From positions 107,739,125 through 107,803,124 of the forward strand of contig OX465581.1 of the NCBI GenBank assembly GCA_950022655.1: a stretch of DNA of 64,000 nt, given 5' to 3'. Shown piece after piece: positions 1 through 58,200 of this stretch. The notes under the pieces are model-generated. The model made no database searches. It was not told the origin of the DNA and saw only the letters and a program-made list of their open reading frames with translations. The DNA comes from Alentia gelatinosa. Its lineage: Eukaryota; Annelida; Polychaeta; Phyllodocida; Polynoidae. The position numbers and the translations under genes are program-made. Positions within the stretch are counted from its first letter, which is position 1. Each line of letters starts with the position of its first letter.

Positions 1-17
1 TTCTTTATTTCATACAG

Positions 18-9539: not shown

Positions 9540-9608
9540 TTTCTTTCCTATGGTCATTAGTAATAATTATCTATTTGATAATGGGTATACATAATATATA
9601 TATATATG

Positions 9609-12925: not shown

Positions 12926-13260
12926 TTTATCTCACCCCGGTGTTTTTCTCCATAGGCTTAACATTAGGAACTCATACTCGACAGCCGTGAAGGCACTGTA
13001 CCCAATACTCAATGGCTAATTGGGTGATTCATTCTATCAATAAATAATTTTATGCTGGGTGAGATAAAATCAGAAACCCGCCCGATAAAATATAATTAGT
13101 CTGCACTCCACCTCATTTGACCACTCGATTAAAATAGCTCAGTCAGTACTCCATCTCATTTGACCATTATGTAATTCATGAAGCTCAGCTCAGTGAGTTA
13201 TCCGTTGTCAAACTCGATGGAGTACGGACAAAGTTATTTCCATCACAAGAGTTTCCTTCT
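12926..13260 (+). repeat. Modular palindrome element P, copy 1
   Basis: Module: TTTATCTCACCCCGG (12926), then TTTTTCTCCATAGGCTTAAC, closing with GGGTGAGATAAAA near 13060. It is followed by a palindrome running from GAAACCC to GAGTTTCC (to 13258) with arms containing TGCACTCCACCTCATTTGACC and TCAAACTCGATGGAGTAC. The arms are more eroded than in the copy at 42807 and include a second partial arm (CAGTACTCCATCTCATTTGACC). Non-coding. Confidence 0.7.
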
Positions 13261-14391
13261 AAGTATAAAGACCTAAGATGCCACGTTTCATGGCATTTCA
13301 GGTTATCCGCGTTTTTCCACAATTGACAATATTGTTTTTATCCTCATATATGGCTTTGATAGGCCCGACCCCATCAACATATCTGTATTTTTACCGGAAT
13401 CAGGCTGAACCCAGGCTGCATTTAACCTACCATAGACATCCCGTGCCACCCTGACAGTATCTCACAAGGTGTCCTCCCCTTCTCTACTTATCACATGGTG
13501 GCTGATCACTGATGAAGGTTAGTGGGGAGGGAGTTGGAGACACCAGATACAAACTCGGGTACCTCGGGTGATTATATATTTTAAAGGAATAACGCAATAC
13601 ACAAAATATCCCGCCTCGGTGATCAAGATTTTTCTTTTATAAAGACAGGTCACGTTTCATAGAAATATATGATTATCTGATGAGGAAAAATAAGCACTCC
13701 CGCCAGCTGGATGCTACCTTGATTTTGGAATAGAACAACTGTCTCATGCCATGGCATTATGACTGATGACATTTCCAAGAAAATCCAGATATCCCAGGTG
13801 ATGGAAAACGATAGTAACTTTAAAGAAATATTTTATGTTGCAATGCGAAGCCTGTAGTATCCATATCTAGGTCAGGATTACCCTATCTGTAGAGTTTGGT
13901 AAGGTTTTGCTGCAAAGAAGCTCCTCGGGCATCATAAAGTGGGAGGGGGGGCAAGGGGGGGGGGGCAAGAAATTTGCATCGACAACCCATATATGGATAC
14001 ATTCATAGGGTTGGGTAAATGAAGGTTTACATACTGGATGTATATACTTTAGAAACATACCATATGGTCTACTAAGAGAGATGTACACTTACATGTATAT
14101 CACTAAGGGGTCAGTTTTAGGCCTTGTAAGCTAGAAGTAATAATTCTAATTCAAATAAAGCTACCAGTGAAGTTTATCTCTCACTAAGGATGAATGGTAG
14201 GCATGTAGCCTTAGAAGTACGGACATGTAGATATTCTAAGAAAAAAGAGGGTTTCCCGATACTGAATCCTATGTGTCGCAAGTGAAAGGTATTCGACCCA
14301 AGTAATCTAGAGTTGTGGCGGATACCATCTTTTCAATTATGTTTGTACCACGAATCTATTAACAAATATATAAGTCATCCAAGTCCGTGTT
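13261..14391. other. No recognisable gene
   Basis: AT-rich spacer with a G-tract at about 13945-13966. Nothing else identified. Confidence 0.4.
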
Positions 14392-15712
14392 TTTATCTCA
14401 CCCCAGATATTTTTTCTCCATAGACTTAACATTGGCAACTCGTATCTGGGTCACTGTATGGAAAAACGTACTTTTGCAGCTTCAGAACAGAAAAAAATTC
14501 TATTTGTTGGCCAAATCCTATTTCATGTTAAAATACATATATTTACCTATAAGAAAAATATAATTATACTCATTTCATATCACTGGTTCAGTTTTGGCAC
14601 AACTTTGAAAAATACCTTAATTTTTCAGGGAACGTTCGGTATAAGACTCTGTTATTCATTAAAATTGTTCAAAACAGAAGTGAATTTAAATTTCCATTCC
14701 TAAAGAAATGCTCTTAGTATAGCCAAGTGTATTACCTAACACCATGGAAAATATGAAGTCTCTCATGGGAGTATAAATATTGATTTGGCACCATGGAATG
14801 AATACAATTAGGCTTATTTCAAGCCAAATTTGGCTTTAAGCTTTTAAGCATTTAGGAACGTTCGGTATCAAAAGAGTATAAAATCTGATGCACCATACTG
14901 GGAACTGAATGCAGAAGTCAAGTTTTGTAGCAGGTGGCCAATTTTTTCAGGATTTAGGCTAACCATTCTTTACTTCCCATAGTAAAATTTGGAGTTAGTT
15001 AACTCATAGAGAAATATAGGATGATCCTTTTTATACAAGTATAAAAACCACATACCGAACATTCCTTACTAAAAAGTGTTTTCTTAAATAAGGCCCTAGG
15101 GACTTAGTAAATAACTTGAAACAGTTGAAATTTGTAATATTATAACCTGAAATATCTGTATATGTGATTATATTGATTTATTTGGTTGGTATTAAGTGAT
15201 AGAGGTAAGTTGTTAGTATATTTCTCTAAATTTTATTTTATATTTCTTAAAAAATGCTTAGATTTACATGTTTTTCAGGATTCAATGTCTCAAAAGCTGA
15301 AGGTGTGGGAAAGAAACCCCTAATAATATACATTTTCTGTTACATCATAATGTTCTCTGTCCATAAATACTAAATATAACTCTGTCAGATAAATAGAAGT
15401 ACTATGAGCTTCTGTAGAATGTATAAAGGTAGAGAAATTACCCAAAGTACGTTTTTCTATACAGTGACCCATCTAACGATCATTAGATATTTAGGAAAAA
15501 TATCCAATGGGGATAATGTCACAAATGTTAGCCCATTAGTCAATATTAAGGGTGAGATAAATTCAGAAACCCATGAAAGTTTAGGGTCAGAGCTCGACCC
15601 CATCTCATTTGAATCACATAGTAATTCATGCGGCTTCGCCTTGTGAATTACTACGTGATTCAAACATCGATGGGATACGGGCTCAGACCCTAAACTTTCA
15701 TGGGTTTCCTCT
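14392..15712 (+). repeat. Modular palindrome element P, copy 2 (split by an insertion)
   Basis: The left part, 14392-14447, reads TTTATCTCACCCCAGATA, CTCCATAGACTTAACATTGG and CTCGTATCT. The right part resumes at 15471-15475 with AACGATCATTAGATAT and runs through GGGTGAGATAAA to a 144-bp palindrome (15566-15709). Palindrome arms carry TTTAGGGTCAGAGCTCGACC and ATTCACGTAG-type bases around GCGGCTTCGCC. The uninterrupted copy on the - strand at 26341-26633 shows the order is continuous apart from the inserted block. Confidence 0.75.
14448..15470. mobile_element. 1,023-bp terminal-inverted-repeat element inserted in P copy 2
   Basis: The two ends are 27-bp inverted repeats with a single mismatch: 14448-14474 begins GGGTCACTGTAT and continues GAAAAACGTACTTT; 15444-15470 is its reverse. 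ATCT flanks both ends (14444-14447 and 15471-15474) and occurs once at the matching empty site in the P copy at 26341-26633, so the target duplication is 4 bp. Inside, GGAACGTTCGGTAT occurs at 14629 and 14855 and reversed (ATACCGAACATTCC) near 15052. No transposase frame. A 4-bp duplication fits families such as Chapaev or Sola, but I cannot assign one. Confidence 0.75.
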
Positions 15713-18700
15713 ATAGTATCTCCCAATCGATATCATTCAGATTCAGTGGATGACAATATTCTGTAAATGCGAATAGTCCTTTTGTTCTCTTGTATTTAAG
15801 CTCCGTATGGGAGGTAAGTGGCCGCGTCTCCACATGAAGCAGATACCAGACGGCGTCGCGTCCCGGCGTCTGTATGACCCGGGAGTGCACTGTAATGTGA
15901 GGCGTCATTATAAAGCCGTGGTAGCGTTGCTGCGGGAGCAGACGACATTAGACCCGGCATGTGTGGATCATTGTGGACAAATTACCGCCTCGTGGTGCAC
16001 GCGGGGTATGTCGCGGTGAAGAGCCAGTTGTAGGGCTTAATGAGAAAACGCCCCCAACCCTCATCTACCATCCACCATCATCGACCCCACCAGTTAGGCT
16101 TTGTGAGCTATTGTGACTAGATATATCAAGAGAACTCGGCCATGTTACTCTGTACAGATCCTTTTACCAATTTCATAGAGGTCTACTATTTTATTTGTTC
16201 GGGTTGGTCATATTTTCAGTTTCAATTGTCTAGTGTTTTTTTCTTCCTTTGATGAAACAAATTTCAATGCTTGAAGCGTATCATTTAATATCCAAATACG
16301 GATATAACGTACAATTAGTTCAGCATGCGAGTGCAGTGTATTTTTAGGAAAAGCTTGTCAAATCCTTGTAGCTTTGCGATGGCGTGGTTATGCAGTGGCT
16401 TCTGGTGGAGATTAGCACATACACACATCACCTGACGCTAGAACATGTGAGTCCTGTGGTGAGACTTGGCCGGTCACGTGATGGTGGTATGGGGTCTAAT
16501 AGGGCGTACGGGGAATTGTCGTACGCTGCGGGTCTGACATCATTTATGTATAGTGCGTAAATGTCACAAAACCCAAGGGGTCCCGACAATGTAGCGTCCA
16601 TCTAACCTCACAGCGGCCTCGAGCCCTTGCTGCTCCATGTCCCCGCCTCAGCTTAGTTATATATCAGGGGGAAAACATTTTATCTTACGTGAAAACTACA
16701 CAAATTTGTGATGTACATGTAATATGATGATAGATGCCCAAGTGATTGCCTTCAGTACTTTTTCCCAGTAAGCACCACGACCAGGCTGCAGCAATCCAAT
16801 TTCCAAACAGCTTGATTCTCCTCCATTTTCAATAGTAGGCCTCAGGACGTGTTTCCAGAGGACGTTCGGCAGAGTCGGATTACAAAAACATGTAGCTATA
16901 TTTGGATTAGATACGCTGCAAGGTTAAGTCTAATGCAGGATAGTCTAGATACTTGATCTGATTTTTCCTTCAAGTTGGATGGATAAAGATTGATATTAAT
17001 GTGCTATTTTTCACCAACGTCGAATAGACCTCTAGTGAACACTAACAAGATCAAATACTAGAAAACTTACTCAATGGACTTATGAAAGCGTAGATAATTT
17101 TGAACGATCATAGTTTGTAGAGTATGCATATGGATATATGTTCGTCTATGTTATTATATTACGGTCACTCTATTGATATTTCATACCATTAAAGGCTAAA
17201 TTCCATTTGGCCGAATTTGGTGCCAATCAAGGTCTTACACTATTTCGGCCCCGTGCGGCTCCTGTCCATGCCTTCTTTGGGCCTTGAAGTTTCTTCTCCT
17301 CCGACTAGTGTTTTGTTCCGGTGCTCCACTGTCTCTGTCACCCTCGCACCTAAGTTGCAGTTTCTGGTCTAAATCTAGTTATCCTAATACAATACAGATC
17401 ATTTCAAATATATTCTTGATCATGCCGTGATGGGTCGGCAAACATCTGTATTGCAAAATCTATATGTGCCACCATGCACAAACCGCATTGGGTTGTCACA
17501 CCCGACCTAAACGCAAAGTGTCCTGGTTGCTATTTTACCGAAATGCTTTTGCGAATATATTTTTGCAGCATTTCAAGAACAGGTGCAACTCAGGATAAAA
17601 ATGAGAATATATTTTCCATGGAAATACGGATATGGTTTTTCGTAAAAATACAGATATAAGATGTGAAATAACGGAAAATATGCGCCCACGGTAAATACCA
17701 AAGAATTCAGCACCGAGGCGAACTTGGCCCAGAGGAGACCTGGGCACCTGGGAGAATGCCAGACAGTATCATCTAAATTTCTTGATATTGTCTGGTCCAT
17801 GCCTAGGAATTCCCACGCATGTACAGTGTATTCTCTCTAAACCGTGGTGCATGGTAGTCGGCTGCAGGTTCGGGATGGTGAAATAGCTATGCAACAGCGT
17901 TAGCTGCCGATCACCCACCGGCTCGTGTCCAACCTAGGTCCTGATTTAGGTCCCAAACAGGCTCTGGACACCTGAAGAGGCATCAGGATGATGCAACAGT
18001 CCCACGTATGTGTACCTGATTTACTCCTTTTCCACAAGCCCAATCATTTTATTTATCAAATTATACCCGTTTTCAGTCAGAACCAATATCCAATGCTTCG
18101 CTTTACAATCATAGATTTGGCTGTATAACGCAAGGCTGATTAGCTAAACATACACGTTGGTGGAATAGATGATCTGGTTAAGATGACACACAAGTATGAT
18201 TTAATGTATTAGCGAAAGATGATGCTCGGAATTCCTAAACACCATTTCAGGGATGCATACGGATATTACCCTCTGGAACACTGTGTCGTTATTATTATAA
18301 AGATCATTATCTGCTGTTCTCTTTTCAATCCTGCTTTCCGATTGCTCGCAATGGAAAACAAGGGGCTAATGCCCCAGGGCAGAGTTGATTCCTCTTATTT
18401 TCTCCTAGAAATGCCGATTATTTTCAAAACAAAGATTACCTTTATCTTAAAATGGAAATAGAATCGCTCTTTCCTAGATTTGAACGTACATCACTATTGT
18501 TCTGAGGCCTGAATTTGGCTCTATTGCAAGGAATACACATAGCTCAGAATCATATTCTCGACACACCACCTGTGGATGATCTCAAAGTAATGCCTGCTTA
18601 TCCAGTATCCAGTCAGAACAGCTGTTCTGGTCATGTGATACAGGAATTTGCCGTACATCAATAACAACGAGAATATTGTTGTCGCCAGGAATGGTTGTGA

Positions 18701-24700: not shown

Positions 24701-26340
24701 CTGCGTTTTTAAACGTGGTAATACCACAGAAAGGTCTCAGTGGGTCTTTGTGGCCTTACAGATACAGGTAAGGGAAATTAGTTATTGTTAGAGATCACCA
24801 ACTGGACGGGAGAACAGAATGAAGCACTATCAATCCATCTGAATATGTGTGTAATTACCATCATAAAACACCACCCACCGTTCCGATAAGAATACGACCC
24901 AGGAGAATTCATTAGCCTGCTGTATAGGAAGCAAAAAGAAAATGAACTGTTGTTGTAATTGCTCTCCTGAGTGTTTTCATATGAATATGATTTTGTGAGC
25001 GAGGTAAGATTTATTACTACCTGATACGATTTTTTTCAGTTGAGAATAGAAGTATACTCCGCTTCGTCGTTTAAAAATCTAACACGATTTCTTCGGAAGA
25101 GATATTGCGATAATGAAGAATATACCTGTACTTTTGCTAGTCAGTCAGTCTACCATTTAAGATATCTCTGCAATCTTTACACACTGCCAATTGATTTCCG
25201 TGAAAATTTACATCAGGTCAGCTGATGATGCCAGACATCATAACTCAATCTTGAATATGAACCATGTATATGTTTAAATTAGATGATACTGCGAATTCAT
25301 GTGTCTCAGGCTAGCCCCATCCTAAATTGTGAGTGAAGTGCAGTAATAGTGCATCCTTATCAATTACTGAAAAATCACATTGAATCTATAAAGGCGATTT
25401 CTTTCAGATGTTCGGAGGCTGAATTGAAAGACTGAACATCAGTTTACTCTCCAAATATCATTGAGATATGAGACTGACAAGCAATCTTTCTACATCACAT
25501 ATTCTTTGTAGTTTTGATGTTTGAATTTATTTTGAATATTCTGATAGAGGTATTTTCTATGGGTTATATTTTCCTCATTTCCTAAACTTCCCACTACGAG
25601 TTTGTTTTGTATCAAGTTGAATTTCTCGGGTCAAATTACCTGGCATTCAAATACCACCTCCGAATCCAGGCCACATGGACTTCCGTGGTAATTATATGTA
25701 TTGGAAGACCCAAAGCTGTCATGTACTATTAATAACAGCGAGCACGATATTAGCTCTTCTGGACCCCGATGTGGCCGCCTACCGCCTGTAGGGATCCAGA
25801 TGTAGCTGCACGTAATCAGTGTGTAAGCGGGGCACGGGCGGCCGTCTGTATGTGTACAGTGGCTCGCGGCTGGCGTCCAGCACTTGTTAGCACTTGGGAT
25901 CGTCTTGGGGTGTGCTTATTGGCTTTACCTTCGGATTAATCCTGATTACCGCAGCAATGAGAAAGATATATATAGGCCATTTCCCGAAATTGAAGGCATT
26001 ACCTAAAAAAAATAATCCTCCCATATGATGAACTAGATGCAATCGTTTCTGCAGATAAATTCTAATGAAGACACATATGAAACTAAGTTCACATGGCCAT
26101 GCATGCTCTCATGTAGAATTCGTGTTGTTCTGTTTATATTGTATTTGACATATGCACACATGAGGTTGACATAGGTAGATAAGGCCGCCGAGTGCCAGTT
26201 CTCAGTAGTGTTAATTCATTAGTACCGCCAAGTCTAGTCCCGTATGCAATATGAATCCTCGCAGGTTGATACATGGCACTACAACAGCTGATTTAACACT
26301 GCAGATTTTCTGTCGATGTAATTATATAATGGTACTATAG
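15713..26340. other. 10.6-kb stretch with no recognisable gene
   Basis: I found no exon with family-level similarity. GC- and CpG-richer patches occur at 15790-16030, 16370-16640, 19150-19380 and 20960-21450; they may be regulatory or hold untranslated leader exons. At 19310-19330 CACCTGGTGGGCGGGAAA combines an E-box-like and an E2F-like word. At 20965-21459 two frames are open together for about 160 codons, but neither shows a known domain or splice context. Confidence 0.35.
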
Positions 26341-26633
26341 AGGAAACCCATGGAAGTTTAGGGTCTGAGCCCGTATCCCATCGAGTTTGAATCACATAGT
26401 AATTCACAAGGTGAAGCCGCGTGAGCTACTATGTGATTCAAATGAGATGGGGTCGAGCTCTGACCCTAAACTTGAATGAGTTTCTGAATTTATCTCACCC
26501 TTAATATTGACTAATGGGCTAACATTTGTGACATTATCCCCTATTGGATATTTTTCCTATATATCTAATGGGCGTTAGATACGAGTTCCCAATGTTAAGT
26601 CTATGGAGAAAAAATATCTGGGGTGAGATAAAG
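26341..26633 (-). repeat. Modular palindrome element P, copy 3 (uninterrupted)
   Basis: Reverse orientation. The palindrome occupies 26342-26485, with arms CATGGAAGTTTAGGGTCTGA and TGACCCTAAACTTGAATG. The module then runs from TTTATCTCACCC (about 26489) to CCATAGACTTAAC (reversed) and GGGGTGAGATAAA (26621-26632). It is the closest relative of the split copy at 14392-15712 and gives its empty site. Confidence 0.75.
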
Positions 26634-27114: not shown

Positions 27115-27122
27115 ATTGCTAG

Positions 27123-27579: not shown

Positions 27580-27587
27580 ATTGCTAG

Positions 27588-29248: not shown

Positions 29249-31813
29249 AGCGATACCTTAACTGTGCATGTCAGAAATATGCAATATACGGGTAGGTTTA
29301 CTGTCTGAATGTGTATCAGTATTACCAGATAGACTGCTGTATAAATAATTTTCCATATGAAAACCACACGAGGAAGCAAAAACAGCTCATAGCACACGCA
29401 CTGGCAGAATTTCGCCCAACGCCACACAGTTAGATTTCCGTGATGTACTTCTTTGGGTTACCGGGATAATCAAAAAGTACCAATATCGTCTTTCTTCTTC
29501 TTTTTTCTTTTTTTTTCAAGAAATTTTAACGACATTACAAACAACGTGTTACCGGACGAATACAGGGAACAATTAACAATTATTGTTTTCAACTTTTGTA
29601 CATCCAGTAGTCTTTAGACCATTATTAGTATTTTAATTATATGCCATCTTTATTTCCATTACTTTGGTCTTTTGACCCGGAATACTATTCCATTAATGTT
29701 CCAATCTCTGATATAATCTTCTTTTTTAATAAAATTTACTTCTTCAATTGAAAATTGATGTTAAGATGTCTAGCACATAATCCACCGCTCACATGGTTTA
29801 TCGTCACTCGTTGCCTTCACTATTTTGCCAAGTAGGATGAGTGGCTTTACATGTAATGATATTAAGAAATATATATTTCTATCCTGTTACTGTTAATGTT
29901 ATGAACAAGAGAGTTATATATTTAGACAGACCACACATGTTTTTGTTGGGTACTTGTCCTTTGCAGTGTTCAAAGCCAAACGTCCTCTACCTGGCTGGTC
30001 TGGGAATATGTATGTGGAGGGGAGCCCAGATCCATAGCAGTCTGACACATACTATACAACCACTGTCATGCAAGCCGGCAGTATGGGAGTATATATCAGA
30101 ATCTACTCACGAGGTGCTCTCCCCAGGTATAGAACACGTATATTAAGTCCGTGTACCAAGCTAAAAGATACCTTGTGTGGTTCAACCACATATATTATTT
30201 TTAGCCAGATATGAGTCTTCCAGGGGTGTCAGTTTCCTGGTTATTTCCATTAGTTTCGTCTATTAGATTATTAAAATATTAGCAATCAAGTTTGAAGGTA
30301 CGGACATTTTCCGATTATTTCTTCAGAAATTACTGGGGTCTCAGGGTTCAATGATGAATTCACATTTGGCTGTAAAGCATAGTTAGGTATTTTTATAGAT
30401 AACTGTGACTGTTAATTCTGCTCTGGGGTATACACGGTTTAAAACAAAAGTAATATGAATAAGCTTTTCTCAAGTCCAGGGAGGATGCGTGTCTAGTTAG
30501 TAGATAGACACTTTCATGTTGGGTGGGTGCGCATCCATTTGCACAGGTCTACTTGTAGTTACAGATTAGTGTGGGATAGATGGATATTTAGAAGTGGTTG
30601 CGTCATGAGACCGCATCATTTCTGCTCGTGGAGACACCTGATATTGCGTTAGATCTCACCATGTTTCTTGGAAGCTGAAAACATGTCGCATGTTACGCTG
30701 CTGTAAATCACAACATCTGGGAGCTATCCGACTGCCCCTCCCACATAAAGTGCAGTCAGCATGGGCATACCATTAATAACGAACACGGGGTGTCCTTGAT
30801 GATTTACTTATCCCTCGACTATTCAAAAACAAGAGGAAGAAATACTCCCTCGACTTTTTCCAATTGCTCTTTGTGCAATCAATACACATAGATCTTCGCA
30901 CATAATTCATTTTACCCATCTTAACGGCGTAATTACTGACTGTCAAATACTTTTCGCACGTATATGATTCGTATTCTCGTATTCGGAATTTAGCGACAAC
31001 TAACAGTAGATATTACATATGCAATGTATGAGAGTTGTAACATAAGATGTTAGAATGTGTATATGTACACTCCTGTGCCATACAGTACTATCTTATCAGG
31101 CTTTATGGAGGCTCATCGGCTATGGATCACAGTTTTTTTTATTCAATTAATCTGGGAAAGGAGATATCAAATTTGCCTACATCGTCCTGACATTGATACA
31201 GATACAGATACTTGTAATCCAGTCTAAGCTGATTGTGTACGTTGTCTTTGAAAGCATCCTCTCACGCCCACTTAGTACTTAGATTATATATGGACGGCGG
31301 ATGTTGAACCCGAGACGGTCAACAGGACCGAGACATATCCCATTTACTATTAATCTATAGCTGATGGATGAGATCCCCATATATGACACGGGAGGAGAGC
31401 AAAGAAACTTGTCTTTTTTCATATTTTTTATGCCACTTGATGAGAGTGCTCTATAGAATTAATCTTACCTCTGAGAACTGAGCTAAGAGCCTGTACAACA
31501 AACCTGGTGAACACCGCCTTGTATGATAAGAATGACAATAAGGTGAGGCGAGGCTACACATAAATTACACCTATATCCCACAAGATCGAATTGATTATAG
31601 CCTGAACTAATGAGATGAAATGGATTGATTTGGTGAATTTTCCTTACGTAAGTCTTCAAATGAAATAATATGCTCGTAAATGGAGATAATAGTACGTATA
31701 GAATCTGCAGTGTGTATAAAGCTTAACACTGTTCCGTACGTTGTAAATAAAACATTAGTTGTTAGGCCAAATTAAGTTAATTATTTTATTAATTTCAGGT
31801 ATATAGTAAATAT
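29249..31813. other. No recognisable gene
   Basis: AT-rich spacer upstream of TMEM63. The TMEM63 leader exon and promoter should lie here or farther upstream, but I cannot point to them. Confidence 0.35.
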
Positions 31814-31954
31814 AACGACCTACCATGCTTGTACAAAGTACAAAACCCGATGATAATTTACGGTTCGTACGGAACTCGGCATAAATGCCTCGTTCCATAC
31901 AAACACTAAATCATCATCTTGTTTTGTAGTTTTGTACAGCATGGTCAGGTCGTT
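31814..31954. repeat. 141-bp palindrome
   Basis: Left arm AACGACCTACCATGCTTGTA ... GGAACTCGGCAT and right arm ATGCCTCGTTCC ... GCATGGTCAGGTCGTT pair over almost their full length with only AA between them at the centre (about 31882). Same size class as the P palindromes but with unrelated arms and no TTTATCTCACCC module. Confidence 0.75.
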
Positions 31955-41100: not shown

Positions 41101-44100
41101 ACTGTTTTCACTTTTCATCCCGATATCCTTCTTTCCTTCATTTTCTTTCCTTGGTAACTATCAGTTAATTCATAGTTGGTTCATCAAATCTTTCGGTACC
41201 TTTATCAAGTTATGTCTTAATATTGAATTCCTCGGTAAATTTGTGTAATTTTCTTTGTTGCAGTTATTCGGATTATGCATATTCGTATGTATCTATTGTA
41301 AGATGGTGATTTGTTACTTGCCTTTTACTCTGAGGGTTTCTTCATGTTTTCTTACTATGTTTTATATTCTCCTTGTGATTAAGTTACCCAATAATTTCTG
41401 TACGGGTAATACCTTAAACTATCACGTTAGATTTTGGCCAAATTCATTTATGCGTGGGATACACTTGTGTGAGAGGTTTGACCTAATTGGACAAAACTTC
41501 TGTGAATTGAATGAATTTCATAAACTTATTAGATATTTTTGTCTTCATTTTCATAAGGTCTTCAGAATTTGAAATTATTTAAACTGATGAATTCTCTTTA
41601 ACTTGAGATAAAATCTCACCACCGTTATCTTTCAACATTTAGTTATTGCGATTTTTAAAACTTTAGTGCACAATTCTTTCCAGACACCATCTGGTGCTAG
41701 TACCGTACCTTAGTGGCAGTTGAATACTGACAGTTTAGCTTTCAGTTTGGATTTCTAGAGAAATCACATACCGGTAATGATTGACATGTATTGTAAGGGT
41801 GGGCTGCGTAAAATGACGAACGTTAAGTCTCACGTTAAGTCTCACGGTACCTAGGTAAACGATTCCCTAACATCTATGGTCATCCCTTTTCCAGTTGATA
41901 CACATTTATTTCCATGTTTTGTAACTAGTCTTTTACTATTTGATTAATACAACTTTTTACAAAGCTATGGATTTACAGATACTGCAGAACATTGCCATCT
42001 ATTCTATCCTATATTATCTCTGACTGGCCCAGTATTTCCCCTCGATTGCTACAAATACATGACTTCCTCAAGACATAAATATAGATGCACGGCCGTGTGT
42101 ATATATTCATGACCGACGCAAGCAATTACTTGACGAAGATGCTTTCTTTGTGTAACCTAGCGTACATTGCACAGCTGTATTTTGAACTCATTAGTACTGC
42201 TTTGCAACATGTTTATGAACCTAAAGGTTTCAGAAAGGAAGCCAGGAATTGTTTGCATTAGCTTGAACTATTTATATCATATGCGATACCACTGTGACAT
42301 AATGTCAAATACATGTACATGTATATACAAAAGACATATTACATGTATATACAAAAAAACATATCTGAGACAAGGACAGAAGCAATTATAAAGTGTATTA
42401 TATGTGTACAGTTTGTGTCCGACACAATTAAAAAATCTTAAGATATTGTTACTCGTTGTGTGTTAAATTTAGATGACTAGGGAATGATCTTGCTGTGGGT
42501 TTAACTCCAGCATGTGCTGTGACTGTAAGTGTGTGTCACTTTATCTTGTAGATCGCTGCTGCCGGATGACTCCAGATACAATGTGTACGACGATTTTCTT
42601 GGTTTGAGTTTTACAAGTATTTCTGTTGTTTCTGTTTCTTCTAGTCTGTTTTGTACATATTTCTTTTGCTTCCTTCAAGTTCCTTTGAATCCAGCAGCTT
42701 TTCAGTGTCTTCCTTAATAACACTTAAAACCTCCACTACTCTACTACACAATTCAAAGCTCTTTTGGAATGGGTTTAGCGAATAACTATAGTAAGATTCT
42801 CACCAATTTATCTCACCCCGGTTTTTTTCTCCATAGGCTTAACGTTAGGAATTCGTACTCCACGGCCGTGAAAGTATTGTACCTAATACGCAATGGCTAA
42901 TTTGGCGAGTTATTCCAGCAATAAATGATGTTATACGGGGTGAGATAAAATCAGAAACCCACTCGATGGGAATAACTTGGTCTGTACTCCACCTCGTTTG
43001 ACCACTACGTAATTCACTCGGCTTCGCTTCGTGGATTACTCCGCAGTCAAACTCGGTGGAGTACGGACCAAGTTATTCTCATCTCGTGGGTTTCCTTCTA
43101 AAGACATAACGGAGTCTGCGTTTACACCATGTATAGTGAATAGTAGTGGATACTGATCCTGTCTCATTTGGCGTTCATGGGTCATTTCACTAGCTATCCA
43201 TAGTGCTAATCCACTTGTAGTCATTTGCTTTGGACCATGATGAATCACATTAGTCAGCATAGAGATACATGTCCCTTGTTGGACCTACATCGGTATAAAC
43301 GCACTCTTAATGTAATGTGGTAATGGAGGGCGGGTTTCAGTGTTCGTTTTGAGTGAAGGTTCCCCATCTTCTCAATGCACCGACTGAATTGCGAGCACTA
43401 TTCTACCCTCATCACTCCATTTAGAAACAACAATACAAAGAACCCTTCGATAATTAATTCTTCGGTTTCACGTTTCAGCATGTGACCCTACAACTGGTTC
43501 AATGGTCTCCATTTAAGTACTGCAAAAACCTCTCTTGAAATATCGTTGATATGCCGGCTTCGATTCATGTCTAATTGTTAACCCCAGTGACAAATGTTAT
43601 GTTCATTCTAGGATTAAGATACAAATTCATATCTACATTTAGTATTATTACCTCAGGTTACACGGAGTGAAAGTTTCTTAAATCGTATTTATTTTCATAC
43701 AAAACAAGACATCCATGTAGCTGCTGTGTTACGCCAACTCTATTGGTGTTGTTTGTGACCAAGCTTCAATGCGTTTTACATTTATATGCACCAATTTAAG
43801 TCACTGAGTTGCACTGCGCGTCATCTTGCAATACAAGAAAAGCGTTGGACCATTTTTTGTGCAATATGCGTAGCGAAACTGGATTTCTACCATTAACATG
43901 CACCTGAATACATCTGCACCGACATAGGAGAACCATCACCTGTATTTGTCCTGCTGTAGATATCACGTTACAATAAAGAAGGTTGCACGCGTTACTCCCA
44001 TCGATCACTTCAGCCAGACTTTTGGTTCAGACCCTTACACAATACACATGCAGTCGGAGATCTTGTAAACTTTTTTTAACACACAACGATTCTTACAAGT

Positions 44101-46167
44101 GTAAGATCTTCCACCAAGGGCTACAACAGGTGGGATTTCAGACAACAAGAGAAAGCCATTAACAATTATCTCGGCATGTGTTTAAAAAGACATAATAATA
44201 AAGGACTATGGTTGTCAAAATACAAGGTATTAGTTTACAGATACACAAAAAATATTACATAACATACCTTTATTTCTAAGATGGGTTAAACATTAAAACA
44301 ATATTTTACTTTATTTTGTGTTAAGACCTACGTACCATGGTATATAATTCTATTGATAACGATTACTCGGGCTCCACAGTTAGTCTACATGGTTATAATA
44401 GTTATATAACTATATTATCAATGTACCTTCTTATCCTGGATATTCCCGTTGGTAATGTAAAGTATGTGCGATGTTTTAGATGGACATCGCTCTTCTACGG
44501 CGACCACAATGTCAACGAGAACCGCGGGTCACAGGAGTCCTTGGACACACAGGTGCACCGCCAAGACAAGGTCAGTCTTACCTAGCCTGAGGTCTCTAAA
44601 GTATATACCTACATACAACTGGCCGAGGGGGAAATTTCTGCTGCGGAGTAGTGTTGTTTACGTATAGACAACGGGGAATGTGTAAATTATAACGGAATGT
44701 TGAAAAATATCAGACAATCTTACGTTCGGCTTCTATATATTTCATTGCTAGAGCAGTGGATGGAGGCACAAATAGGACTGCTTGAACTCTCAATATCGCC
44801 GTTATATGCATAGTGTACTTTGTATCTCAACCAATCAGTGTTCCTAATATGCATAGAACCATCCTCCTCGTTCAATAGAAATACAGTGTTATTGATACAC
44901 ATTGTCTGAATGGATCCTGTATTAGATAGCAATGGCTGGTTCATTACAGTGTATAGCTCAGTGTTATGTACTCCCCTCTGACTTAAAGCTCCAAAAAGCA
45001 TCTACTTTGCCATTATGTTCCACTGGTTAAAAAGGCTTGTATGTACGATATAGTTATATGTATTTCTGGTATTTACGCTGTAGTAGTGTTTTATGTTAAT
45101 ATTGATTGAAAAGTACATTCAGCTTAACCAGATGAATTCTTAGGAGTATTTAAAAAAAAAAAATTATCTCACAAAATCAATTCTGCCACTGAGGACAGAT
45201 CTTTCACAGGAGTATGATGAATGCAGAGCATACGGTTCTTTGATACATGCTCTCATTAGTTCGTCGCCACCTCCTACCTCTCGAAGCATTGTACACCGTA
45301 TCTGTCTATAACACACCCATTCAAAACACTGACAAATTTATATAACCACATATTTTTTCTTTAACTGCATTCCTATGTTTTACTCGTACAGCCAATTCTA
45401 CCAGACCACCAACAGGAAGTCAAAGACGAGGTATTCATGAATAGGAACATGGAATGTAGAATACGCCTATTGATAGAGAGATTCTATTACCCCAATTTCA
45501 CTCTTTCCTGGACGTGGGGTTCTTTGAGTTTTCAGCCCGAGAAACCTACAATCTGTTAACTTGTTATAAGGAGCGAGGCTTATTCCCTAAGAAGACTTTC
45601 ATTTCGTGACCGGCAGCATGGCTACATCTTATAGTTTCCTATCATTTTGAACCCATCCCGCATCTATAAAGTCTAGTACACTTTATGAAATATGTATGAC
45701 TATTAATGAGTAATGTATGTCGAACAGCTGTGAGATGGGGTCTCGTACAAACACAAATTGGGGTTAATACTTGTCATATGCTCTGAAAATGGATGTCTAT
45801 TCAGTTAAGGCCTATTTCACCACCGTGAATATGCATATGCAAAATTATTTCGATCATATAACTCCCTAAGATTGGCTTTTGACTATCTTCTGGTATGGTC
45901 TCTAACAGTCCTCTTTCTTGGTTAAGGTTCTCTTTTTATGCTTTTCCACATCAGGAAGTCAGGTTTTATTTCCTTGATTTAAGATAGAAATAAAGGGAAA
46001 CTATTTATTTCCAGCTCTTTAGTTTAACGTGCTATAACCATCAGGAGTGAGATACATCACATACTGAAAAATGCACTAATACATTACATCGCTACACTTA
46101 AGCTACACCAAAAGTACTAAGTACATGTATCCTCAGCCTTAGTAGTCCTCTGAACCCGATATACATG

Positions 46168-46264
<97 letters not shown>

Positions 46265-49200: not shown

Positions 49201-52200
49201 AACCACTGGCACTCAGTCAACTTGACATTTCTCAAAACTGCCTGAGTCTAGGATCAAAGCATATCAAGCAACAGTGGGTCAATGAGGTATTTCAGTCTTA
49301 AGTGATTGGTCATGCTCAGCTGGGCATGCCTCCTAAGACCCTCGAGCACCCTTCTCCTTATCCAAAAGCACAGCGAATAGCACATAGTTAGTGAAGGGAT
49401 AGATTTATCTCAGCACGCTGAAAGTGTATGTGACCACTATAACCATATATAGGCAACGTATATAGGGCACATAGCCATTGTGCTACGGAAGCGGCCATCT
49501 TGCCCCCCGACGCCATCAAAAACACCAGGTGGCGGGACCACTTATCAATGGATTTTATCAAAAATACTTTTGGGGGCTTGCCATAGAGGAATTTTAGCCT
49601 TGTCTCAATATCATCTATAGATTATAACAGCAGATGGTAGTGGTCAACTACAGTGGCGCTATCTTACAGTTTCCTGACGGATGATGGCGGAACTAGCACT
49701 GACTCTGTGCCCTATAGTGCGTAAATAAGATGGCTGAAAAGGTGATTGAAGAGAAGGTGGATACCTCTCGCAAAAAGACTCCAGTAGTTGACTATTTCAT
49801 ATATATATACGATAACATGTATCGAAAAATGTTAAGTTAACTGAATTTGAGTATATTTCTTTTTTAATGCAGAGGGAGACACACAAGCCTTTGGACACAC
49901 AACCATCAGCAACATTAATTCGAAGTAAGTTACAGTCATTTTTCAGCATTATCCATAGTGAAGTGACGTGTGCTTTACCCTGAAGGCTGTGTTAATATTT
50001 TACTAATTTTTAAACATGTAGTATATTACATTTATGCAATATTGGTTGATATTGAATGGATACGTTCCTCTAGCGATGCGTTTACATAGTTCCCAGCCTG
50101 AAGTGAAGTATAATCGGTGACGGGGTTTACCCGCTAATGCAGGGTTATTACGAGGACGTCAGACGGTGAGTGATTACTACATAGATAGAGTGTATGCCTT
50201 AACGAGCCCAATATGTCATCAACGGGAGCTTTGTAGAATCAATACCGCCACTGTCAGCCGCACATCTACTTTGGCGTCTGTAGAAGACTGATTGACTGCA
50301 CGGCTTATTTAGCCCTCGTGTTTCTTATCCGGATCGCGTCGTCAACGGCTAACTACATATAAAATATTTGTCAGGTCGTTGTTCTATTAAATTGGCAAGC
50401 CCCGGATTTTGTATTCACACAGGTTTATGTCTTATTTGTTATGATTTCACCTGATGACAGTCTTATCCACCAACAATAAAATGTCGTTGCTTCTGAAATA
50501 GTAACGTATCAGGTTTAAGGTGTGCAAGTAAAGGTTGATATGTATAGTAACATGTGATTTTAAATGCAGTACTTCAACAGGGATAAGTATTATTGAAATA
50601 CATGAACTGCCTCCATGAGGAAATAAATATGCATTTTGGAAGGGTCACCTTCATGACGTGAAAACCGTGTGACAAGAATCGATGGTTTTGTGGACAGGCG
50701 GTCGTAAACCACGAGAGGTTGATGTGTAGTAATACACGAGCGCTAGCGAGTGTATAACGACGTCAGCATCGAATGGTTTACAGAGCCGCCTGTCCACATA
50801 ATCATCGTTTGTTGTATTTATCCTACCGCTAATAAAAAACCGCCATAGACTTAACATAGGGAAATTTTATGTGGCAGACCGTGACATTAAGTGTTTTTTA
50901 TGCCACTAGAGTAATAACAATATTGACTAATCAGAGAGCAGGATGTCAGCTACTATGAAAAAAAAGTTCTGTTGGTCATTGACTCAATATTTATCTTTTA
51001 ATAATACAAAAGCATAGACGAGGTAGGATAAATACGAAACCAAACTCAAATGTCTATGCCACTCTGGTCAGGTCTGCTCCTCACTACATTCGGCTACGCC
51101 TCGTGTAGTAATACGCGACCTTCCCGTCGTGGCATAAACATTGTCAAGTCTAACTCTCGTTCGGTTTCTACTAATTATTATCCATCTTTTCGAGTAGATT
51201 TAACCCAGTATTTGCCAGATTAAAGGATATAGCAATAGGGACTATTTCTTTGTTCTGTAACACAAAGAGACTATTTTTCCCGTATACCATGGTTTTGAGG
51301 CCGTATACCACAGATGTGAATCCGTATACCACAGTTATGGTATCTGACAGGTTTTATATAATGGGTCGTGATTTACTGAATCCCCATACATTTTCAATGG
51401 GGTCATTGCATACGATGGATAATAAAACTTTATTCAGTGTCGCAATTAAGGTTTAAGTCCCCATTGTTTAAAAGACATTCTATGTTCCTTTCCCAATAAT
51501 TTTCTTACTTCTATGATTGATTAATGTTTATTTCCTTAAGTCTTGTCGTTATTTTTTCTGTATTTTACGATAGAGTGAGCTGTATGGATGTATCATTTTT
51601 CGAACAGAGTGGTCAGGGCGTGGGGCTTTACCAATGGCATATCTTATAGTATGTCATTTAGCTGATGGGTATTTCTCCGGCCTACATCCTTCCCAGTTCT
51701 AACCAGACATTAGCAGAAGCGACCAATCATTAATGAGAGTCGTTCTCTGTTAAACTATCAAAATTTTGCCTGTATTTTCCTTTCAACCGGTGATCTCTGA
51801 GCGCTCTGTTGTAATTCTGTTGCGTTTCTTGTTTTCTTTATGAAAATATTTCCACATTTTTGAAGTTGTACAGTGATGGTCGGATGTATTTTGTCTTAAT
51901 TTAAAAACAATAAGAGCTACATATTCATTTTTTGCCAGCTCTCCAACTCTCTGGGTTCACAGTGTCCTGGCAGTGGTTTTCCTCATTATCGCTGTTTTCT
52001 TCATGAGGCATTTCTCCGTTAATCTCCAGTACGAAGAGGATGAGCAGGTTGGTGACGGTTTACTCTCTGAGATAACACTTACATAGCCTAAATACCCACT
52101 GATATATCAGCGAGTCGCTGGACGAACCGAGAGGGCAGGTAGTTTGAAGTATGGCATTAAGTATTTGTTTATTGGTTCTACTTGTACGGAATACTCTTGA

Positions 52201-55200
52201 GAATTCACTCTCGTGAGATAATCCCCTTATAATACAATTCTCAGTAGTCAAGGACTCAAAAACTCCCTTGCAGTATAACACACAAATAAAAAAGTATGAT
52301 TTACAAGTCCATGCTTATCAGTTAAATGATTAGAGCAATCACGAGTGCAATTTATCTCTTTTTTATATATCTTTTTCACAGGATCTTTGCTGTTATTATG
52401 ATTGACCGTGCTGGTACATGGAAATTTAGAAATATTGATTGTTCACTATTGCTGTTATAACAATTCATCGTTTTAGTGTTATTGTTTAAAAATGCACTCT
52501 TGCAAGTTAACTCTTTGACGAAGTTGTTTTTGCTGTGACTGTAACTTCTATCTACTATTAAATACATGCCTAAACAGTATGACGGACAATTTATATCAAA
52601 CGCCAAACTGATAGAGCTACAAGCGTCAAACATATGATAGGTCAGGTGGTCAGATAGGTGCCTAAGTTATACGACTGACTCAATCCATGCTATGTATTGC
52701 AGGCAACTCGCACATTGATGATCTCAAACATTCCAAAGGATAAGTGTTTCCGAAACATTATCTCTCAGCATTTTAGGTGAGTGTTTATTTCGTTCTTCTT
52801 TATCCTACCAATTTCTGAACTATTCATTTGTTGTATTTCAGTTATTCTTATTCATTTTTTTATTCATGCTGTGTTATATAGGTTATTTCTTGAGACGATG
52901 TCTTTTTAGCAATATCGAGAATTCCTATAATGAACCAGTAATATGCGAAGGAGAAGAAAGGAGGTATAGTTTTGTGACAAAAAAGGCAGGAACTGGCTCG
53001 GTGGGAACATAAAGGGACAACGATACTCCGGCTGGTATATTTTTGTTCTGTGGCAATTAGATCTTTTGCTTTGGTGGGTCAGCTCTATGAAGTAACGATA
53101 TAGCCAATAGATGATTTCAGTGGGTTCAGTCGATCGGGTAAAAAGAAGCGATTCCGGAGAGACTACATAATTATGCCATGTCAAACCTAATCATCACTAA
53201 TACCCCAATACTGAATAGACTATGGAAGTTTTTCCTTATTACAACGGGCATAACACTTTCATCTTATTATTTTTCATTTTTCTGTTAAAGTTTTTGATTT
53301 TATACAGGGTAGGCCTCTTTATATTTACATCAAATGTTACATTTGAGAATTCTATTGCTGTGAAAGTTCATATCCTGTCTGGTTCTAAATATACACAAGA
53401 AAAATTCATTTGGATTGTACCTGAATCTACCTGTTCGTAGTTCAGGTGAGGCTTACCGGAAGGAACAACCGATTGATAGTTATACAGTTAATACAGGTGG
53501 GGCAAGCTAGGTCCAATGACACTGGAAATGATATTTCCATTCATTAAACAATGGCTGATTATGGAAAGCAGAGACTGAGGGTCGAAGTGGGTTTCTGGTC
53601 CTATGCACCTCATGTCTCCATTTCAGAAATTTTTTATCCTTTGCACCTCCACCGCTTCCTGTTTCTACACAGTTTGTTTTAATCTTCTGTCTCTTTGGCT
53701 ATGATACACCTTTTCAATTTGTATTGGCTCACTCATATAGACAAATATTGTCAGATATAGCTCGGCGACACTCTATTCATATGAGAGTATATGTCTTTAT
53801 CCTACCCCTCATATAAATCTCAAGACCCTCTTCACACTGGCGCCATCTTGTAATGGCCGCCTAAGTAGGTCACCCGAAAACGAGGCGTGCGACCTAACAC
53901 CTGAGCGTTTGGTATGGAAAAAACCTATGTTTTTCTGCCTCGGAAAATGGAAATTGCTCTTGCTTTGTGAATAACAGGCCAATCTTCATAGATAAATCAA
54001 TGTTAGAAAGCTGGGACTCTGGTCTATTTGTTGGTATACATATCATAAACCTATTCCTTGGCTAAGCCTTCCCGTGATAGCTTGAGCTTCAAAATTTGTT
54101 AAGTAAAAAATATCAAAACCTGTTACCTTCCTACCTTCACAGTGATTTTATGAGAAATATATCATGATGACCTGTAGAAATAAACATCCTATCTTATTAG
54201 GTATTTCATGACAATTAATATGATACCTACATTGCAAGGCTGTGATGGATATTTCTTTGTGTAACATAGCATTATGACAGATGGTAACATAGCATTATGA
54301 CAGATGACAAAGAATATAAATATATGCATTGGCAAGGAAATGTCAGTTTCCTTGCCAATGTCATTTATATTGATTATCAAGATACCTGATAGGAAATGCA
54401 TATTATCTATACAAGAAATATTTATCATTTATATAAGAAATAGATATACAAAAAATATTGGGCCATGAATACAGATGGGCAGGCTGAACATTTAATATGG
54501 ATATAAATTTGTCAACTGTCATAAATACTCCCATTACCTCTGGAAATATCTATCACAACCTGGTAATATAGGTGCCATTTATATCATCTTGAATTACCTA
54601 AGAAGATATGATGTATATTTCTATGGGTCATCACAACAGATTTTTCTATCACCCGGCGCCAAAGGGATGGTTCTGGAAGCTATAATGTGGCCGAGTGCAG
54701 TGTTTTCACACCTTATCCCAGGTGTCAAGACTCTCCACGCAGGTGTTGTGCCTCAGGAGGTGTGATAGAAAAGCAAATTGTGAAAAAAACCGGACTGTGA
54801 CTGTGAATTTAAGCCTTTATACATGGCACCCACTACACAGTGAAGCCACACCAGGTCGCACGCCTCGTTTTCGATGAGCACAGCGACGCTGATTTTCGGC
54901 GAGTGGTGCGCGGTTATATAATACCAGCGCAACCCGTTCTTACGGCGACCGACGCGCCACGCTTATGTGAAGAGGGTGACTCACCATGGTGGGCCTGTAT
55001 GCCACGGTTATGCCATAAAATATTTATATGCCACTGGTGACATATGAAGTTAAAAACATGTGACAGGGTAGGATAAAATCAAAACATCACTCAATTTCAT
55101 ATAATTGTTGATATGCCATTCGTTGTCTTCCGCTACAGATATCACTCAGCTCCGCTTCGTGATATCATTCCGCGAAAACAACTCATGCCATATAAACAAC

Positions 55201-58200
55201 CATATGAAATTTCGTGATGTTTCATGATAATACCGATTATCAGTGACAGATATTCATTACATAGTCTCAGTTAAAGCGCTACGTGTGTAACGATGCCTGT
55301 TTATGAGCACATTATCACAGTATTTAGCTGATTTATCCGAAATCTTTCGCTTCACTTCATTCTTATACCTGAAAGTATCCTGTATTTGAGATTAATCTCA
55401 TAAGTACTACCGTACCAAATTCTCCATTATATGTATATAAGAAGGCTAACACCCAACAACTATTCTTTCTAATGAATTTGAAAATGTGATTTTTTCTTTC
55501 CTTAGGGAAGCATATCCTGAAGATGCAATTGTTGACGTACAGTTAGCTTACAATATATCCAAGCTTGTGCGCCTCGACAAAAAGAGGTAAGACCAGACTC
55601 GATGTATGCTCGTCCGCTAGTCCTCTACCTGCACAAGTGTTTCTCTCTGCATATCTCTACTCTCCTTTGTCATTAACCTCTCACCCATCTCTCTAATATC
55701 TACCCTTGTTCCCAGATCTTTCCATTTCCTTCATCACTTTTTTTTCTTCGTTTCCATCATCGTTCTTCGCTGTTTTCCCCTCGGCTCCTCCAATAAACTT
55801 TCCACGTTCCCATATTGGTCTTTTATTATCTCCTTCTCTCCTTCGTCCTTTCCCTAACCCATTTCATCCCTCACTAACTAGTAAATATCAGCATGAGACT
55901 TGCCGCTGCTGATCTATAATATTAGTTTTTTTACCAAAATATTTCACTTCTGGAAGATTATACGAATGCACATTTCATACATATTTCAACACCGTATACT
56001 CATGCAAATTGACTCTGTCAAAATGGACTCTGTGCTTTCAATTACATGCTCTTTTGTAATCCCGACAATGTCTGCATTTGAAGTATCTACCATATGTATT
56101 AAGTTCCTTTTCCGATAAAGATATAGCTAAGCTCTCTTGATATCCATGCTCCATGTATGTCACTCCAATGTCCTCGAAATAATCTCAACCACGTTCCACA
56201 CTTTAAACCCAGACAAAATGCATTTGAGGGAATGATCAACTCCGAGGCCATCCATAAACAGACTGGGCAGCGGCCCACAATGGTGCCCTTCCCTGGAGGC
56301 CGCTGCTGCTGCTGCGTCCCGTGCTGCGGTTGCAAAGAGGTCAGTATTGTAGCTACCGTCACAGTTCCTAACCATAGGTAATGGTGATTTATGTCATACA
56401 CTGCTGTATCCATTGGCTAATCTTCTCCACAACAAATTGCAGAACGTTTGAGAATTAATCCATATTTCATAGAGATGTGTCCCAGGTGGAGTTGCTTTGT
56501 TCATGCTGACGTCAGAGAAGGCTCATAATACCTCGTGATTACGCATATTCAACCCCTCTGGTGTCTCCTATATTCATTGGTTCACCCACTATGGTGGGCA
56601 GTAAGTTGCCTATTACTGTCTATTAAAGGACCTCCTTCAAAAGAGAATGTATATATTCAACTGACTCAAATGTTGTGAAGATGTATCAATTGTAATTTCT
56701 ATCAATTATATAGATTGTATTGTGAGTATACAGTAGAAATACTCTTGGCCTGGTAGTAATAGCTATGTAGCTATCTTTTGGAACATTTACTATGCCCTTT
56801 ATCAATTATTGTAGGTTGACGCTATCGACTACTACAGCAAAGAGGAACTCTCTTATCGCAAGAAATGTGAACAGGAAAAAGTCAACGCATTTCAAGACAC
56901 GCTAGGGATTGCGTTTGTGACGTTTGATGATGACCACATTGCATCCAGGTTAGATAGCGAAAGTGTTGTCGTAACCTAAATTGGTTTTACTAAAATAGAA
57001 ATAGAATACTTTCATCATTTCCAGTAGGACATGTCCCACAGCACTCTTTTTTACGGACAGGGAAGACTATTGCACTACCCAGACCGTGGTTTATATATTA
57101 CCTATCTTGCCTTTAGAAAACTAAAGTCATGCCCGTTAAATTTTATATATCCTTTCTTGTTACAAATGATTATTGCAATATTTGATTTTTAGAAAATTGA
57201 AGAAATGTATCATATGGCCATGGCCTTACGAGCTGCTCACAATGGACACGGCTAATGAAGCTAGCAATATTAACCCTGTAGTTAATCGATGTACATGTAC
57301 ATGTAATATTTTAACCATTGTTTAATCATATTAAAGCGATAATATTTCAAGTTTGAATTACCCCTATAACTGAAACTAAAAGGTCATGGGTTTATAAACC
57401 TGAGGTCTAGCTGTTTATTGCCCATCGCCCGATTAATATAACCATATAGAAACTATGCCATCTTTAGCCAGTTTTTGTTGTAAATTTCAAATTCTCTTCC
57501 TTGGATAAACAACTTGTTTGAAATTTCTAAATTTCCCCAGAGTTTCCTGTTTCCTATTAACAAGTTGCAGTAAGTAGCTCTTTGGGTGTGATGACTGCGC
57601 ATTATGATCAGTCTAACATTAACAACGCTGCCTGGGACGAAATACCCACCTAGAAATTATTTTAGCACAAAGCTTTTACTAACTGATTTCCTATAATAGG
57701 ACAATAATAGGGCCCAATTGGTTATAGCATATACTGGCTTTAACAGACGAAGGCAATATGGGACATTTTGGTGATTGATAGACTTATAAATTTACCCCCA
57801 GTCAATACATAGTTCATTTTTAAGTGGTAGTGAACGTATTTTTATCTTTCTAAAATTGTAAACAGTCAAACCAATAAAGCAGAACAAGGGATCTGACTGG
57901 AGTCACATGAAATATTGTCAAGAAATTCAAACAGGACTTGGCACATAAAGGTCTATATTACAACGTGGATACTTAATCCGGTAAAATAGATGTAATATTT
58001 TATCAAATTATACTAACAGGTGTTGGCGTTTTCAATTGATAATTTCCTGTTGATTCTAACCACAATTTTATTTGCAATATCAAATGTGTTGAAATAATAA
58101 GATTAGGTTACGGAAAAGTTGTTCTCATTTATCCAGTTTCCCCAGTATAGTCCCATTTATATAGCTATTATTATCACTTATCTTCAAGAGGCAGAAGAAG

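Follow-up and report, generated by a model that had tools for sequence, protein, structure and literature searches.

Non-autonomous transposons of the polychaete Alentia gelatinosa with Helitron2/Helentron-like ends and long terminal hairpins that may be read as a folded single strand

Introduction

The described systems that come closest to the elements treated in this work are Helitron2 transposons, in which asymmetric terminal inverted repeats (ATIRs), inverted words of 8-15 bp, lie at the very 5' terminus and just before a 3' hairpin, the 5' end is a T, most elements lack target duplications and structure-keeping compensatory changes have been reported (PMC3627910). A comparable set of subterminal inverted words, a 3' palindrome and insertion without target duplication characterizes the Helentron/HINE/DINE-1 elements, including Cg_HINE of the Pacific oyster, which are non-autonomous and very numerous in invertebrates (PMC4067079, PMC7492417). 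Here we analyze elements of this general construction in a stretch of 64,000 nucleotides from the polychaete Alentia gelatinosa (assembly GCA_950022655.1, contig OX465581.1, positions 107,739,125 to 107,803,124; this whole stretch is called the window) and in the rest of its genome. They are short non-coding transposons closed at the 3' side by a hairpin of 141-146 nt, the mismatches of which include tandem G.A steps on one strand only. We lean towards the reading, which we hold to be moderately probable, that they are non-autonomous transposons moving via single-stranded DNA, with Helitron2/Helentron-like ends, an enzyme that reads the fold and arms that are kept matched by selection.

Several other systems offer points of comparison. 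In the 3' hairpin of Helraiser, swapping the stem leaves about 90% of the activity while changing the loop costs activity (PMC4778049), a combination of free stem and fixed loop that is experimental there and inferred here; Helraiser differs in its 19-bp palindrome, its 5'-TC and CTAG-3' ends and its AT target. Fungal Helitron2-like elements have 5' hairpins with a GAA loop (PMC5148889). The attC sites of integrons are recognized as a folded bottom strand via extrahelical bases (PMC3053210), although their core sites and enzyme are unmatched in our elements, two recombinase loci offering no support. The left-end hairpin of parvoviruses is a long terminal palindrome in which a GA mismatch bubble matters for the replication origin, although it is viral and its bubble is an asymmetric GA/GAA one (PMC1185569). 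The last two systems may be similar to our elements in their working; neither is claimed as kin. In the literature searched, outside which most subscription journals lay, we recognized no description of long hairpins with GA landmarks at transposon ends.

Ends, Insertion and Copies of the Elements

From 5' to 3', an element runs from a word of the form TTATC..ACC through a module to the inverted word GGT..GATAA and the hairpin. The 5' ATIR is TTATCTCACCCC and the 3' ATIR is GGGGTGAGATAA, its exact inverse in element orientation; TTATCCTACC and GGTAGGATAA form a second such pair, and the words vary by family (GGTGAGATAA, GGTAGGATAA, GGTGGATAATAA, AGGTATATAATAA). Near the left end of the module stands CTCCATAG(A/G)CTTAAC. 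The 3' ATIR is followed by 4-5 nt, the hairpin of 141-146 nt and a further 6-7 nt to the element end, a total of about 152-156 nt from 3' ATIR to 3' end in the consensus sequences of the subtypes A, B, c8 and c6; the 5' end lies 133-218 bp from the hairpin in the four consensus sequences. Among 17 representatives of hairpins with tandem GA, 9 have an exact 10-base inverse of the ATIR within 1.5 kb upstream, a count made without a chance control; the partner found for one of the types, c6pre, is part of a nested c6 element.

Subtypes A and B are 91% identical in the first 45 bases and 82% in the last 22, compared with 71% in the hairpins and 66% in the remainder of the module, where shuffling gives a mean of 56% and a maximum of 68%. 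For the other five pairs of subtypes the corresponding values are 73-84%, 62-76%, 60-70% and 58-76%. The ends and the landmarks of the hairpin are the most constant parts, module interior and stem being both variable, and an earlier note on this DNA, which had described a constant module with an exchangeable palindrome, thus put the matter too strongly. It had also spoken of several unrelated arm sequences, which is only partly right: the arms do differ by subtype, yet the A and B hairpins agree at 71% of positions and landmarks are shared.

The genome of 1.23 Gb (1,234,393,884 bases) was searched with four window elements and the best 40 matches of each were scored. All 40 were 95-100% identical for B (of 4,384 first-look candidates) and for A (of 4,195), 96-100% for c8 (of 2,799) and 93-100% for c6 (of 3,146), the first-look candidates being not all true copies. 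These searches bear out genome-wide the linkage of module and palindrome that had been noticed in the window. We then analyzed 30 loci per subtype for A, B and c8, taken best first and biased to well-preserved copies, plus 6 of c6. Similarity among aligned copies drops sharply at the 5' (T)TTATC and at a 3' limit of CTCTATA in A, CTTCTAA in B and CATGATA in c8.

The 5' end was set from these alignments together with empty sites. When the joined flanks of 64 junctions were tested, three matched uninterrupted relatives without gaps: that of locus L055 (relatives at L093, at L078 and in the window), that of L031 (relative at L058) and that of L042, the empty site of which lies within the locus's own tandem repeat. 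L064 and the c8 copy at L093 also fit empty sites if the first T is counted to the target; others, among them the junctions L105, L096 and L037, match less cleanly, and many of the listed matches are other copies of the elements. Over 67 distinct insertions the target is T|RTAYY (T in 54, then R in 57, T in 58, A in 56, Y in 61 and Y in 55), with a weaker RTA ten positions upstream. Target duplication is not above chance, at least two matching bases being found in 17 of the 67 insertions against a shuffled mean of 13.6 and a maximum of 22. The L055 copy is itself inserted in an element of another subtype, p31814, within the ATIR word, similarly to a case in the window (the element at 50818). 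Head-to-tail contacts were found by script in 4 of the 67 insertions and by eye at four further c8 loci.

Outside this genome, an 18-base module pattern gave 26 viral and 3 prokaryote matches, the viral ones mostly variants of one recurring sequence; no ATIR stands around any of them, and all 26 and 3 were taken as chance.

A Fold Kept on One Strand

In DNA, the bases of tandem 5'-GA-3' steps pair stably in sheared geometry. In our hairpins, tandem G.A mismatches lie about 4, 29 and 59 pairs from the loop, while the sequence of the arms differs between subtypes. A systematic scan of the flanks of 90 loci and of the window, for hairpins of at least 100 nt, returned 163 hairpins in 22 clusters. 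Tandem GA is present in 146 of them, in 10 clusters, and lies on one strand only in all 146, never on both. The 17 hairpins without it comprise one member of the largest GA cluster and 16 that form 12 other clusters, some of them simple repeats or inverted repeats of other kinds. Two long palindromes that are nearly perfect and lack GA landmarks (L043:2245-2394, L119:2391-2539) are probably other elements. Most of the 146 (99) lie within or next to the elements used as queries, and 6 lie in the window. The other 41 are spread over about 270 kb of flank, approximately one per 6.6 kb; extrapolation gives a rough figure in the order of 100,000 GA hairpins per genome, which must be read with the caution that flanks of insertions may be richer than other DNA.

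Hand-picked representatives, several of them from one family, gave the same picture: 17 of 22 have tandem GA, none on both strands, and their 31 GA sites fall at 3-5 (13 sites), 28-33 (11) and 51-61 (7) pairs from the loop. In eight window palindromes, a count by eye gave thirteen tandem GA/GA steps and not one step of the opposite type; the arm mismatches of the bottom strand amount to 50 purine-purine, 13 pyrimidine-pyrimidine, 27 G.T and 18 A.C. On the GA strand, the loop is GAA, GTA or GGA in A, B, c8, c6 and the types N2, N4, N5c, N8 and N9, while c6pre and its relative in the window have GCTA or GATA; the remaining types are different or unclear. GNA/GNNA loops with a closing G-C pair make DNA mini-hairpins of extraordinary stability (PMC4686876).

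The strand that carries GA predicts the direction of the element. With every hairpin oriented such that its bottom strand is the GA strand, a word similar to the ATIR (GGT and ATAA separated by 1-7 bases, close variants included; background 4.8% per 44-nt stretch) stands directly upstream of the hairpin in 130 of 146 cases, the side that a Helitron2-like layout predicts, and downstream in 14 of 146. In predictions of DNA folding, the bottom strand is the more stable one in 16 of 18 types, with energy differences of 0.3-9.9 kcal/mol; the B hairpin folded for this purpose had a T at a position that is variable among copies and is C in the consensus.

The stems between the landmarks have changed with their pairing kept. 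The arms of the window copies c5 (B-type) and c8 are identical at just 30 and 33 of 69 positions. Both sides have changed with pairing maintained in 24 of the 69 columns (shuffle mean 8.6, maximum 18 in 10,000), 21 are unchanged pairs and 8 are unpaired in both copies, six of these being identical G.A. This accords with the earlier observation that arms remain complementary while subtypes differ in sequence. A spelling that changes under a constant, strand-specific fold suggests that what the enzyme moving these elements reads is the fold of a single strand and not its sequence.

Divergence of the Hairpin Arms

How the arms stay matched was examined in the copies of A, B and c8, 30 per subtype. 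Identity between the two arms of one copy is 0.839, 0.774 and 0.752, respectively (75-84%), while that between the same arm of different copies is 0.974, 0.951 and 0.963 (95-97%). The earlier note had proposed arm-to-arm conversion, or replication through the hairpin, as the maintaining force; instead, the arms of one copy are less alike than the same arm of sister copies, an outcome that the note itself had named as refuting its proposal. Changes private to single copies number 261 (58 in A, 117 in B, 86 in c8), of which 175 break pairs (48, 75 and 52); one is a mirrored double change and none is compensatory. Since most private changes break pairs and none compensates, inserted copies drift freely.

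Templated copying between arms does occur, if rarely. In 3 of 90 copies (L071, L088, L114) a TC-to-GA double change stands alone and reproduces the opposite arm, against an expectation by independent change of about 0.013, computed with rates inflated by two misaligned c8 rows; the three stand among nine adjacent double changes in the hairpins. A fourth distinguishes the window copy at 14393-15715 from the A consensus, and all four lie at the outermost mismatch site. Templated correction is thus rare and acts against the landmarks. A flip of the palindrome was not seen in the clearly related window pairs c1/c5, c2/c3, c2/c5 and c3/c5, which all align better in the same orientation than reversed. 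As the upkeep of the arms conversion is not supported, and it would also erase the conserved mismatches. Matching between subfamilies would be best explained by selection on source elements, and selection on the fold explains it better than conversion does. The proposal in the note therefore fares unevenly: linkage and kept complementarity are supported, conversion as upkeep is not.

Elements of the Window

The elements of the window are collected in table 1. The words on which the earlier note was built are present, as are the palindromes linked to them, while several of its copies had to be re-drawn. The word TTTATCTCACCC occurs exactly four times on the plus and four times on the minus strand, against a chance expectation of 0.36 with one mismatch allowed, and TTTATCCTACC five times, above chance. 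CCATAG(A/G)CTTAAC is exact in five places, but its count with up to two mismatches is not significant (6 against a chance mean of 2.9, with 9 of 100 shuffles reaching 6).

Table 1. Elements and hairpins in the window, in window positions
Feature	Positions	Strand	Landmarks
Degenerate hairpin, c6pre relative	9408-9545	-	loop GATA on GA strand
B-type element c1	12927-13262	+	5' ATIR 12927; 3' ATIR ends 13068; hairpin 13073-13249; 3' end CTTCTAA
A-type element c2	14393-15715	+	5' ATIR 14393; 3' ATIR 15551; hairpin 15566-15708; end CTCTATA
A-type element c3	26336-26631	-	5' ATIR 26631; hairpin 26343-26484; end CTCTATA at 26336
p31814 hairpin, another subtype	31814-31954	+	3' ATIR AGGTATATAGTAA before it, at 31797
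B-type element c5	42808-43101	+	5' ATIR 42808; 3' ATIR 42939; hairpin 42954-43094; end CTTCTAA
c6pre hairpin of minus-strand element	50672-50815	-	nesting read from flanks
c6-type element	50818-51174	+	5' ATIR 50818; 3' ATIR 51022; hairpin 51036-51168
c8-type element	53797-55229	+	5' ATIR 53797; 3' ATIR 55067; hairpin 55082-55222; end CATGATA

Self-comparison of the window yields six palindromes of 141-144 bp, those of c2, c3, p31814, c5, c6pre and c8, which score 16-39 in an ungapped scan where the best of ten Markov controls reaches 13. The copy c1 also scores 13, no better than the controls; it is badly decayed, with a hairpin of 177 bp, a duplicated stretch in one arm and poor arm alignment. 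The best-preserved B-type element of the window is c5, whose tandem GA steps are 4, 28 and 59 pairs away from the loop; in the c8 copy these distances are 4, 30 and 59.

The positions 14392 and 15712 of the earlier list are the two ends of the single element c2, which is split by an insertion of 1,023 bp (14448-15470) with ATCT on both flanks. This insertion is a separate transposon, with inverted ends beginning GGGTCACTGTA. The copy at 26341 is real, its orientation being corrected to the minus strand, and so is that at 54980, the true start of which is 53797 and which an insertion of about 1.1 kb (window ~53822-54997) interrupts. The palindrome at 50672 is not that of the module at 50817, which has its own palindrome (that of the c6-type element). 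The latter copy has lost its outer GA site by deletion and appears, by its flanks, to be inserted into the minus-strand c6pre element at the ATIR adjoining the hairpin, because the sequence on its right side goes on with TTATTATCC, as expected of the ATIR that the older element lacks. The earlier list had also missed p31814, for which an exact 5' partner word was sought upstream and none found, and the degenerate palindrome near 9408-9545.

Elsewhere in the window, an AT microsatellite (46158-46263) dominates simple inverted-repeat searches. Positions 1-3403 hold kinase exons that we read as Nek2-like and, on the minus strand, the gene for mitochondrial ribosomal protein L14, the best named relatives of which are from molluscs and annelids, its closest matches bearing no name.

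Discussion

How, then, could elements with such dissimilar stems share a single way of moving? The ends resemble those of Helitron2 and Helentron in several respects: the placing of the 3' ATIR directly before the hairpin, the T-linked target (T at position -1 in 54 of 67 insertions) and the lack of duplication. Nevertheless, the hairpin that fits within 20-30 bp of the end in Helitron2 takes up about 141-146 nt here, and the Helitron2 target is TTTT|T/C rather than T|RTAYY (PMC3627910). In mite HINEs the palindrome measures 5-10 bp, with no tandem-GA landmarks mentioned in the accessible text (PMC4067079, PMC7492417). A satellite-like core, which belongs to the Helentron/HINE pattern, was not noticed in the subtypes studied here. 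No RepHel copy was seen linked to the ends. The elements are not filed as Helitron2 members, because their distance from ATIR to end is not that of Helitron2 and the partner is missing.

The mechanism that we favor may be outlined as follows. Tandem G.A mismatches and, in many types, a GNA/GNNA loop would let the bottom strand fold cleanly, while the top strand has T.C mismatches in place of G.A. An enzyme, probably a Rep-type nuclease, would recognize features of this one folded strand, namely the loop, the 3' ATIR and the GA landmarks, of which there are at most three, spaced about 25-30 bp from one another. It would cut the element at its ends and insert it at T|RTAYY, no target duplication being formed. 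Single-stranded DNA as the functional form, the choice of strand and the reading of landmarks by a protein are what we deduce from ends, clean insertion, one-strand landmarks, compensated stems and arm statistics, which we observe directly. Between the landmarks the stem could drift as long as pairing is kept, giving rise to subfamilies with different arms and one fold; selection on source elements would keep the arms matched, and rare templated conversion would decay the landmarks of single copies.

Several observations weigh against this reading. The distance between 3' ATIR and element end is about 152-156 nt, compared with 20-30 in Helitron2 and 38-60 in mite HINEs (PMC3627910, PMC4067079, PMC7492417). 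By inspection, without scoring, a hairpin at the 5' ATIR is not evident in the A, c8 and c6 consensus, and one of the form CACC..GGTG is seen in the copy c1. In the hairpins, some tandem GA steps of the set of 146 fall outside the three zones, A has none at the innermost zone and 16 of the 69 columns pair in only one of c5 and c8. N4 and N5c are predicted to be more stable on the other strand, the predicted difference for A and B is only 0.3-0.5 kcal/mol and single window copies favor the bottom strand in 6 of 9. Moreover, the one-strand pattern is given as counts, without a computed probability, and has to be read in the light of the 99 of 146 hairpins at or beside queries, of a common ancestry and of about ten independent families.

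The enzyme, too, is a weak point. No autonomous element with these ends was seen in the genome searches. Helitron_like_N has a single match in 1.23 Gb; it has an H-x-H motif in a frame of 187 amino acids, and no convincing ends of this kind were found in 1.2 kb around it. PIF1 has nine matches in about five places, some with stops, both numbers being small in view of the abundance of the elements. At C7:36809911-36825621 there are two helicase-type remnants about 13 kb apart, one with a Rep domain, the helicase being partly interrupted by stops. One viral family, that of Rep proteins of CRESS type (Viral_Rep), gave no match in the genome, but neither did it in the control genomes, so that this search does not show its absence.

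As an alternative, the elements could constitute a new class of eukaryotic mobile elements unrelated to Helitrons, moved by an enzyme that recognizes the single-stranded hairpin by its periodic tandem G.A steps and its GNA/GNNA loop, a fold code with attC-like logic under which the stem may diversify freely; we regard this as doubtful, if worth keeping in mind.

A closer tie with integrons, in which the module would be the cassette and ATIR plus hairpin an attC-like site, on which a tyrosine recombinase acts after folding of the bottom strand, seems unlikely to us. Integron integrases do read attC by bottom-strand folding with extrahelical landmarks (PMC3053210). The inverse 5' word, the lack of target duplication and some head-to-tail neighbors would fit, as would the abundance of tyrosine recombinases, which gave 5,316 first-look candidates, with 150 of 150 scored above cut-off and many intact frames. 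However, head-to-tail contacts are few, and the two recombinase loci read among the 150 have no ATIR and hairpin in about 1.1 kb downstream and look like other elements: L127 has long direct repeats and is presumably a retroelement like Ngaro, and L128 is apparently an intron-containing multicopy gene. The core boxes of integrons are RYYYAAC and GTTRRRY. The TTATC at the cassette-like start does not fit the TTRRRY of that consensus.

A function of the hairpin as RNA, whether regulatory, as a silencing trigger or as a retrotransposition signal, with movement by reverse transcription, is to our mind similarly unlikely. Tandem G.A pairs are stable in RNA, too, and long hairpins make double-stranded RNA. 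Yet reverse transcription sits badly with precise 5' ends, inverted terminal words and insertion without duplication, many loops obey the DNA mini-hairpin rules (GNA/GNNA; PMC4686876) and Rfam recognizes no family on the window hairpins up to E = 1.

That gene conversion or hairpin-primed copying matches the arms, the fold having no function, is very unlikely. Imperfect palindromes are corrected by templated copying (quasipalindrome correction), and the four TC-to-GA changes copy the opposite arm. But the arms diverge far more within copies than between sisters, compensatory changes are absent among the 261 private ones and the conserved mismatches should have vanished; at the scale of copies, this explanation is largely refuted. 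Finally, ordinary miniature inverted-repeat transposable elements of DDE transposons, with the hairpin as an inverted-repeat by-product and mismatches as decay preventing palindrome instability, would be short, non-coding and very numerous as our elements are, but we find this highly implausible given the absence of target duplication, the asymmetric outer words and mismatches of one kind, on one strand and mostly at fixed places.

If the reading that we favor, of movement via a folded single strand, is true, transposon ends would be recognized in these elements by single-stranded shape, the choice of strand being written in purine-purine mismatches, and many subfamilies with dissimilar stems could use one enzyme. 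How Rep-like enzymes choose strand and end would then become testable. The genome of Alentia would moreover offer a natural set of long structured DNA hairpins, in thousands of copies, with which templated mutation and the repair of hairpins could be studied in an animal.

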